Positions 52 through 2,596 of a stretch of 35,124 bases of DNA are shown here, piece after piece. The translations under genes and the position numbers were made by a program. Origin of the DNA: Actinomycetes bacterium (GTDB lineage Bacteria; Actinomycetota; Thermoleophilia; UBA2241). A model generated the notes under the pieces. The model had not been told where the DNA came from and made no database searches. It was given only the letters and a program-made list of their open reading frames with translations. How positions within the stretch are numbered: the stretch's first letter is position 1; every line of letters begins with the position of its first letter. The stretch lies in contig JAKPOQ010000073.1 of the NCBI GenBank assembly GCA_029547745.1, positions 1 to 35,124 on the forward strand, in the 5' to 3' direction.

Positions 52-549
52 CTACGACAGTCTGACCTCGACCGCGGTCGCCTCCGGTCGGGTCCGCAGC
101 TCGTGCTCGAGCAGAGCGCGCACCGTCTCGCTCGCGCAGACGTCCTCACCTTCGCGGATGAAGGCCTGCACGGCTTCGACGTCCGCCCGCTCGACCTTCA
201 CGCGCAGCAGCTTCCCCTCGAGGCTGAAGAATTTGACCGTCATCGTGAACGTCGCGCGGCGCGCGCCGCAGACGACGGTCACGGCGCGCTCACGGGCCTC
301 GACATCGAAGTGCCGGTGCTCGGCGGCGACGACGTGATAGCCCCACGCGCCGAGCTCGGCGGCCAGATAGACGGCGACCGCCCGTTCGAGCTCAGGCTCC
401 AGGTCGACCAGCAGCACCATCCCGGGGCGCCCCTTCTTGGTGTGCGAGGTCAGCAACTGCACGTTGTGCACACCCAACGCCGTGAGCTCCTCGAGCGCAT
501 GCCCGAGCACCTCTCCGGAACGGTCGTCGATCTGGGTCAGCAGCAGCAC
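52..549 (-). CDS. LarC C-terminal-domain-like protein (nickel-pincer cofactor family)
   Basis: This 165-residue protein resembles the C-terminal part (DUF111, LarC2) of LarC. LarC is the CTP-dependent cyclometallase that inserts nickel into the pyridinium thiocarboxylate cofactor of lactate racemase. The family-like stretches are QIDDRSGEVLGHALEEL near the N-terminus, TKKGRPGMVL at about 37-46, and a conserved-looking tail around VKFFSLEGKLLRVKVE. The N-terminal LarC1 half is absent, so this is a stand-alone LarC2-type protein. The start is taken as GTG at 549, because GGGAGG lies six bases upstream and the family similarity begins there; a GTG at 612 would add 21 dull residues inside a hairpin. 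The upstream neighbour is an unrecognised 593-residue protein, and no larA, larB or larE is visible. Family membership is fairly likely, but the function in nickel chemistry is inference. Confidence 0.7.
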   Translation of the reverse strand: MLLLTQIDDRSGEVLGHALEELTALGVHNVQLLTSHTKKGRPGMVLLVDLEPELERAVAVYLAAELGAWGYHVVAAEHRHFDVEARERAVTVVCGARRATFTMTVKFFSLEGKLLRVKVERADVEAVQAFIREGEDVCASETVRALLEHELRTRPEATAVEVRLS

Positions 550-575
550 GGCGCGCCTCCCGCGGCGTAGGGCCA

Positions 576-654
576 CCGGCGCGCCGCTCGTCCCGCGGCC
601 GGCGGGCACCACGGCACAGCCGTGTGCCCGCCGGCCGCGGGAGCGGCGCGCCGG
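576..654 (-). repeat. Long bulged inverted repeat between the 593-residue gene and the LarC-like gene
   Basis: The two arms pair over 36 bp in three runs: 6 bp (610-615 with 619-624), 18 bp (591-608 with 625-642) and 12 bp (576-587 with 643-654). They are interrupted by a 1-base bulge at 609 and a 3-base bulge at 588-590, and the loop is three bases. The hairpin starts about 36 bases after the stop of the upstream gene and ends about 15 bases before the ribosome binding site of the downstream gene. No T-run follows on the minus strand, so a classic terminator is not supported. RNA processing, 3'-end protection or attenuation of the second gene are the options. Confidence 0.8.
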
Positions 655-690
655 CGTTGATCCGACCCTCGCGGACCGGACCCTCGTTCC

Positions 691-2472
691 TCAGTCCCCG
701 AGGTCCTGCATGATGCGCTGGGCGAGCGCCGCCACCTCGCGCACCGTCCCCTTGACGCCGGGGATCGCCGCCGTGATACGAGCGCCCTTCTCGGCGACCG
801 AACCGGCGTCCTTCACCGAGTACTTGCCCATCGTCGCGGCCAGCACGCCAGGCACCACGGCGTCGATCGTGCAGCAGCCGATGTACATGAGCTCCTGGGA
901 GATCGCCGCGGCGACGGTGATCGGCAGGGAGAGCTCCGACTTCTTGTTCAGGACGGCGTCAGGGATCACGTTCTGCGTCAGGCCCTCGAAGCGGAACTCC
1001 TGACCGTCGACCGTCACGACCGCGTCGATGTCGGAGTCGAAGCCCCAGTAGTTCCGGGCGAACGCATCCGCGCGCCGCGCGCCCCCCTGGAGCTTGGAGA
1101 ACGCGATCGTGATGTCCTTGCCGAAGAAGGCGCTCATCACCTTCCCGGCATTGGCCTCCACTTTCGCCTTGCGACGCGCGTCGAGAGCGCCACAGACCTC
1201 CTCCAGTGACTTGCCTGCGCTGAGCTCGTCCCACGCGTACTGCGCCCGCCAGCGCAGAGCGTTGGCGCGGATCCCGTCGGTGGCGGTGATGACCGTCGCC
1301 GTGACAGGGCCGCGGCGCACCTGCTCGGCCTTGCGGGCGACCGTGTTGATCGAGAACGCCGCGATCTCGGGGTCGATCCACTGCGTGAGCTTGACTTCGC
1401 GCAGAGCGTCGGCGGAGGCGGCCACATCCCCCTGGTTCGCGATGAGCAGGTTCATCGCCACGACGAAGTCGCTCACGAGGTGGGCGAGTGGCGGATTGAC
1501 GGGACCTCCGCTGAAACCGGCGCCGATCATCGGCGCCTCGGCGAACGCGGCGAGGATCTCGTTGAGGGTCATCATGCCGATGACCGAAGGAGCCCCCACG
1601 TCCTTGAGGATCATGCCCAGTCCGCCTATCAGACTGGCGGTGTCGTACTCCTTGTTCGTGCCCCTGAGGTGCAACTTCTCCGGCAGGCCGGCCGCCTCGG
1701 CCGCACCCTTGCCCGCCAGGTAGCCGGTGCCGTGCACGAAGAAGGCGCCGTACTCCGGACCGATCATGCCGTCGGGATTGACGACCTCGAGGACCGCCGC
1801 AGCACCCAACATCGCGCATTGGATGGGACTTGGGCAGATGCCCGCCCCGCGATACGCCTTCAGCATCGCGTCGACGGCGATCTTCGTGCCTTTCGTGCAC
1901 AGGTCGACATACACCATGTCCTCGCCGAGCACGCTATGACCCATCGGCGCGCCGCCGGCGACGAACGCCGGGACATCGCCGCCGTCGATGCGCACGACTT
2001 CACCACGCTCCATGGCCTGGTACAGCGCCTGCACGGCGGCGAAGCCGGAGAGCTTGTTGGTGAGCTTCGAGGTCGGGATGGCAGCGACCCCCGCCCGGTC
2101 CGCCCCGGCCTTGATCCGCGCCATCGCCCCAAGCTTGCGGTTCCCGGCCGGCACGCCGGCCCGGGAATCGGTGCCGGCGATCAGCAGCAGCGCCGCCGCG
2201 ATCAGGGCGGCGTTGGCGCCGTCGGCGCCCGCCTCCTTGGCCGCCTTCACGCCGACCTCCACCACGTAGTCGAGAGAGAGCTCGGCGAGGTTCGCATCGG
2301 AGATCCTGGTGTCCCGCCCGCGAAGGATCTCGTCGGTGATCGCGTTGGCCGCCCCGGCCGCCGCGAGCGACAGCATGCCGTGACCTTTGGTCAGCGCTTC
2401 GATGCGGTCGCTGGTGGAATGCTCGGGCCTGGACGCCAGGGCCATGATGGTGGCGTAGATCTCTTTCTCCAT
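691..2472 (-). CDS. Uncharacterised 593-residue protein, partner of the LarC-like gene
   Basis: I do not recognise this family. The start is ATG at 2472, with AGGAG five bases upstream; an upstream extension to 2523 would run through a leader hairpin. The protein looks soluble and mostly alpha-helical, rich in Ala and Gly, with no signal peptide or clear membrane segment. Conserved-looking stretches are [17 protein letters not shown] at 100-116, [13 protein letters not shown] at 174-186, [20 protein letters not shown] at 248-267 and [16 protein letters not shown] at 321-336. Cysteines sit at 192, 213, 219, 427 and the pair 533/534; 213-219 (CPSPIQC) and the CC pair are possible metal or Fe-S ligands, which is inference. 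It follows the ftsY terminator hairpin and has its own promoter-like box and about 230-base leader. Its only visible partner is the LarC2-type gene, so a link to nickel or a metallocofactor is a hypothesis. Confidence 0.85.
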
Positions 2473-2486
2473 CGTGTCTCCTCTCA

Positions 2487-2509
2487 GCCGAGACGTCTTC
2501 CGTCTCGGC
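2487..2509 (-). promoter_or_regulatory. Leader hairpin next to the ribosome binding site of the 593-residue gene
   Basis: A perfect 9-bp stem (2487-2495 with 2501-2509) closes a five-base loop. It stands only a few bases upstream of the AGGAG of the 593-residue gene. The 300-base gap 2473-2772 holds this hairpin, an 18-base palindrome at 2597-2614, a TATACT box at 2705-2710 and the end of the ftsY hairpin; I see no gene in it. The hairpin could tune translation, but no riboswitch family is recognised. Confidence 0.45.
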
Positions 2510-2596
2510 CCAGGACCGTGCACGCATCGGGCCCTACGTCGTGCGGGCCGCTCTCCCTGGTCTATGCCGGGCCGCGACCCGCGCCGACGTCCCTGA

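Follow-up and report, generated by a model that had tools for sequence, protein, structure and literature searches.

The stretch of DNA analyzed here (the window, 35,124 nucleotides from an Actinomycetes bacterium) encodes a 593-residue protein that founds a new family; the system surrounding this family would be an operon of the lar type that serves another client. From its genomic context, we judge the family to be probably (at a probability of about 0.6) an enzyme that is unrelated to LarA, depends on the nickel-pincer nucleotide (NPN) cofactor, has a dedicated LarC2 partner, and serves one-carbon (C1) metabolism in a clade linked to tetrahydromethanopterin (H4MPT). NPN is one of the few organometallic cofactors in biology, and the only users of it that we know of so far are LarA-type racemases and epimerases. 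A 2024 study (PMC11796402) reports larB/larE/larC without larA in ~15% of genomes, and infers an NPN protein other than LarA. Co-inheritance with the NPN machinery, with no LarA alongside, makes the family described here a strong candidate for this predicted second kind of NPN enzyme.

The gene pair and its family

The gene for the 593-residue protein lies on the minus strand at 691–2472 (open reading frame from the ATG at 2472), with ftsY, an ordinary gene, as its upstream neighbor; at 52–612, on the same strand, lies a gene for a 186-residue stand-alone LarC2, the C-terminal half of nickel-inserting LarC. The initial annotation had described this pair, and both assignments stand. The LarC2 reading frame matches PF01969 (E 3.7e-14, 53.1 bits against a cut-off of 22.1), with residues 19–148 aligning to positions 243–363 of the 375-position profile and hence only to the C-terminal LarC2 half; it also passes, narrowly, the cut-off of the NCBIfam LarC2 model (NF052512, 56.6 bits against 50), and its best PDB relative by phmmer is 3c19 (E 4.9e-6), the known stand-alone LarC2-like protein MK0293. 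Judged by the curated cut-off, this is a genuine stand-alone LarC2, and sequence comparison reveals a D...KKxR...K core common to it and full LarC. In this frame, conservation sets in near a GTG at ~549, which suggests that translation starts there and not at 612. That both window genes are real is indicated by relatives in other phyla, which match the large protein from end to end at 62–79% identity.

A promoter-like box had also been proposed ahead of the operon. This proposal did not survive closer inspection: a sigma-70 scan returned no promoter upstream of the pair, and the 300-bp gap holds a TATACT but lacks a −35 box at the correct spacing. RNA folding places a perfect 10-bp hairpin at 2483–2512 (minus strand), just 5′ of the ribosome binding site of the large gene (region 2467–2540, −31.6 kcal/mol, z −2.4), which is possibly an operator or leader element.

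The suggestion that the 593-residue protein belongs to no known family was borne out. Searches of Pfam, PHROG, and PDB sequences gave no match, NCBIfam none above cut-off (the KdsC and thiazolyl peptide scores, 13.5 and 13.7 bits, are far under cut-off and are chance), and a 13-member alignment of the family used as query still retrieved no known family. Among the Pfam models left unmatched is PF08714 (Fae), and no homologue was found among the phages searched. AlphaFold models the window protein as mostly helical (pLDDT 69.7, pTM 0.77) and the Acetomicrobium sequence more poorly (pLDDT 62.3); with these two models, both of modest confidence, Foldseek found neither a PDB nor a viral match at E ≤ 0.001. 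As the lowest-confidence segments (residues 104–109, 124–142, 161–185, 294–298, and 313–328) overlap well conserved ones, the missing fold match is weak evidence for a new fold. We found no open-licence paper that names the family. Membership of a known family, as covered by these sequence and fold searches, was therefore rejected.

Scanning 84,980 species genomes by pattern yielded 12 loci with full-length homologues at 62–79% identity, from Chloroflexi, Desulfobacteraceae, Gracilibacter, and Synergistota, with the cultured Acetomicrobium hydrogeniformans among the holders. Further homologues have 34–57% identity; profile searches recovered divergent members in genomes G221, G351, G410, G412, G500, G523, and G667, and tblastn against plasmids recovered five Rhizobiaceae records at 42–43%. 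A short family remnant (residues 416–471) at G418:C1:927500–927667, in a Synergistota genome that retains Mch, suggests loss. Across 24 family sequences, 62 columns are invariant, many of them charged or His and mostly in loops (the set includes R112, K113, K136, H179, E184, D185, D234, K290, D291, H331, E369, K381, R467, and D479). Of the conserved Gly/Cys motifs proposed from the window protein, a 16-residue motif does fall in the best conserved stretch, whereas CPSPIQC and the CC pair are not conserved across the family, and we accordingly reject the Cys motifs as metal ligands.

NPN pathway genes and the H4MPT link

Conserved pairing of the two genes in other genomes had been put forward as a check, and the pairing is consistent: at all 24 further homologue loci whose flanks are intact, the cluster includes a stand-alone LarC2, encoded on the strand of the large gene (counted were L002–L013, L037, L038, L062, L063, L064, L066, L067, L068, and L071–L074, plus the window; L065 and L077 were left out because the sequence ends near the gene, and the LarC2 gene of L011 was identified by homology searches). 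These 25 loci are not independent cases, since some are close relatives or near-duplicates of each other, yet they span several phyla. Most commonly LarC2 lies 29–104 nt downstream of the large gene; L005, L038, and L064 have it on the upstream side, and in L037 it is one gene away. At several loci, the window included, LarC2 stands alone beside the large gene and the rest of the NPN pathway is not adjacent. Full LarC is usually found elsewhere in the holder genomes, and the stand-alone LarC2 is thus an additional copy. What sets the window-type LarC2 apart from LarC itself is that it is encoded separately, lacks LarC1, and always accompanies the new family.

HMM searches confirmed LarB, LarC1, LarC2, and LarE in family neighborhoods. 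Four Rhizobiaceae plasmids (L071–L074) carry an operon in the order large protein, LarC2, full LarC, LarE, LarB, all HMM-confirmed, followed in three of the four by a NixA/HoxN nickel permease; this is a complete set of NPN pathway genes with no LarA in the operon, a picture drawn from plasmid records. The lar operon, which serves PF09861 enzymes (nickel-dependent lactate racemase and the 2-hydroxyacid racemases and epimerases of the LarA superfamily), has a similar layout, in which LarB, LarE, LarC, and a nickel transporter are grouped with a single large gene that looks like an enzyme's, and the cofactor is probably the same; the new system differs in that its large gene shows no sequence relationship to LarA, a stand-alone LarC2 is always present, and LarA is missing from the cluster. 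We observe separately that LarE of R. tropici CIAT 899 (L071:15607–16413, plus strand) is annotated as two open reading frames where that of CCGE532 is one intact gene, which may compromise the plasmid's NPN pathway in CIAT 899. Many genomes of the H4MPT-linked clade also have LarB, LarC1, or LarE within the cluster. In L004, the order is LarE, LarB, LarC1, large protein, LarC2, MtdB, FwdD, FwdB, FhcA, FhcD, FhcC, Mch, and L067 is similar (LarE, LarB, LarC1, and LarC2 present); G221 has LarB in the cluster with no H4MPT genes nearby.

The link to H4MPT-dependent C1 metabolism goes beyond the single-window view of the initial annotation. Mch, whose gene marks this pathway, is present in all 13 genomes with close homologues, as against 2 of 396 in the window's phylum. 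Within Synergistota (188 genomes), it is found in 10 of 12 holders versus 13 of 176 others (Fisher p 5.5e-9, with shared ancestry ignored), the two holders without it being the divergent G500 and G523; the divergent holders G221 and G351 likewise have no Mch. In the family tree, one supported clade unites the H4MPT-linked members, and the Rhizobiaceae proteins and those of G221, G351, G500, and G523 fall outside it. On contig C89, the window's own genome carries a cluster of FwdD, FwdB, FhcA, MptA, FhcD, FhcC, and Mch, and in L002, L003, L004, L013, and L067, the pair lies directly 5′ of the gene for methylene-H4MPT dehydrogenase, a context that points to a C1 role in this one clade.

H4MPT genes are widely spread in bacteria, including Synergistetes and Chloroflexi (Chistoserdova 2016, PMC5020050), and the taxonomic spread of the window-type clade is similar. 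This clade co-occurs, and often co-clusters, with the genes of the bacterial H4MPT/methanofuran pathway (MtdB, Mch, FhcA/C/D, Fwd), but the 593-residue protein matches no known enzyme of that pathway. Fae is absent from nine of the 13 holders and present in four, all Chloroflexi or Anaerolineae; because of these four, a simple replacement of Fae would not be clean. A conceptual parallel, and only that, is offered by Hmd ([Fe]-hydrogenase), whose pyridinol organometallic cofactor acts on H4MPT; its metal and cofactor pathway are different, and the 593-residue protein has no Pfam or PDB fold match.

Several other neighborhood features were observed. A Synergistota genome encodes, at L062:4316–5854 (minus strand) between LarB and H4MPT/methanofuran genes, a DUF2193 protein (PF09959, E 3e-235), a type whose description has it conserved in archaea. 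This is a second uncharacterized protein tied to the pathway; its relation to the 593-residue family was rejected, hhalign giving a chance-level result. Two divergent homologues, at L077:1541–3452 (plus strand) and L064:12593–14315 (minus strand), have a URO-D-type methyltransferase and a corrinoid protein in their vicinity (immediately downstream in L077, ~6 kb off in L064), a methyl/C1 context without H4MPT genes. A DUF169 protein is encoded at L064:6846–7637 (plus strand), immediately 3′ of a divergent homologue. Close to the pair in several genomes (L007:962–5750, plus strand; L010:6871–7722, minus strand; L012:1102–4419, plus strand) are NUBPL/Mrp-type P-loop iron–sulfur carriers and small proteins that by eye resemble FeMo-cofactor-binding types, possibly metal-cluster maturation genes.

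Relation to LarA and alternative roles

The window protein matches neither PF09861 (Lar_N) nor any other LarA model (Pfam; NCBIfam above cut-off), and neither the A1 members nor the divergent homologues have a Pfam LarA match. A distant relationship was rejected by hhalign against the LarA proteins of the same genomes, which gave a probability of 0.6% where the control comparison of LarC2 with LarC gave 99.5%; at that value, the NPN-binding motif of LarA cannot be transferred to the 593-residue protein. LarA is also separate in location. It was not found in the 29 family neighborhood sequences (475 kb), and among 72,556 plasmids, five records carry the large protein; close relatives of its LarC2 occur in those five as well, and LarA in 19 different ones (a more distant LarC2 query added three weak matches in other genera). 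The absence of LarA, LarB, LarE, and LarC1 noted at the outset is correct for the window, but the genome has three LarA genes and a full LarC elsewhere, with no LarB or LarE beside them in the stretches examined.

Twelve of the 13 genomes with close homologues have LarA elsewhere, so that NPN from these clusters could serve LarA, and these genomes by themselves are no proof of LarA-free NPN use. A role for the 593-residue protein as an extra maturation factor, which together with LarC2 would modify, store, or deliver NPN or nickel to LarA-type racemases or to another enzyme elsewhere, draws on the same distribution, on the biosynthetic nature of its constant partner, and on the status of LarC2 as an extra copy beside full LarC. 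We consider such a role unlikely, as LarA is never in the neighborhood and never shares a plasmid record with the large protein, most LarA-bearing records are without the large protein, and the cluster partners of one clade are H4MPT genes, not LarA. If the large protein is instead a subunit of a LarC2 complex with a structural or accessory function, such as that of a nickel chaperone or regulator, and no enzyme at all, its mostly helical prediction and lack of an enzyme-like fold match would be explained; 62 invariant residues over 24 sequences is, though, a level more usual for a catalytic protein, and of the roles discussed here, this one seems to us the most improbable.

The strong co-occurrence with Mch, the clusters shared with MtdB/Fwd/Fhc genes, and the nine holders without Fae, the usual entry enzyme, would also be expected of an H4MPT/C1 enzyme that does not use NPN, whose LarC2-like neighbor was recruited for some other task, CTP-dependent or metal-binding, with the lar genes as passengers. 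Outside the H4MPT clade, however, LarC2 is kept (in Rhizobiaceae, G221, G351, and G500), LarB is kept too in Rhizobiaceae and G221, and three of the Rhizobiaceae plasmids have a nickel permease next after the operon; we regard an NPN-free enzyme as improbable, somewhat more so than a maturation factor. As for what had been envisaged from the window, a new metalloenzyme or a cofactor-handling partner, conserved pairing and the Rhizobiaceae NPN operons with their nickel permease favor it, even as the Cys ligands and promoter box have fallen away; a match to a known non-metal family, or a pairing confined to this genome, would have spoken against it, and the searches returned neither.

A candidate NPN-dependent enzyme

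Under the reading that we prefer, the 593-residue protein would be an NPN-dependent enzyme unrelated to LarA. LarB, LarE, and LarC would make the cofactor and the 593-residue protein would take the place of LarA as client of the pathway, which is the most economical interpretation of the operons. The stand-alone LarC2 would be its dedicated partner, either loading the cofactor into the large protein or tailoring it for that protein. By analogy with LarA, NPN may act as a bound hydride relay, and the invariant Lys and His residues (e.g. K113, K136, K290, K381, H179, and H331) are candidate attachment points or ligands. In the H4MPT clade, to which the window gene belongs, the enzyme would act in the C1 pathway, where the likeliest place for it is the entry step immediately ahead of methylene-H4MPT dehydrogenase; the Rhizobiaceae enzyme would act outside the H4MPT pathway.

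LarC uses CTP and cytidylylates the cofactor precursor (PMC11796402), from which one may speculate that a modified NPN is possible. A bolder proposal would make the family the first NPN enzyme that does not belong to the LarA superfamily, give it a new fold, and have it, in the H4MPT clade, pass a hydride or a C1 unit to or from H4MPT just before methylene-H4MPT dehydrogenase, while LarC2 makes or loads a modified, possibly cytidylylated, NPN; taken with all its parts, we hold this to be doubtful.

With its complete operons in Rhizobiaceae, the family offers, for some bacteria, a concrete candidate for the inferred NPN user other than LarA. Published co-expression systems and a homologue in the cultured A. 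hydrogeniformans make a direct test feasible. If the assignment is true, nickel-pincer chemistry would reach beyond the racemization of hydroxyacids to other reactions, perhaps in one-carbon metabolism.
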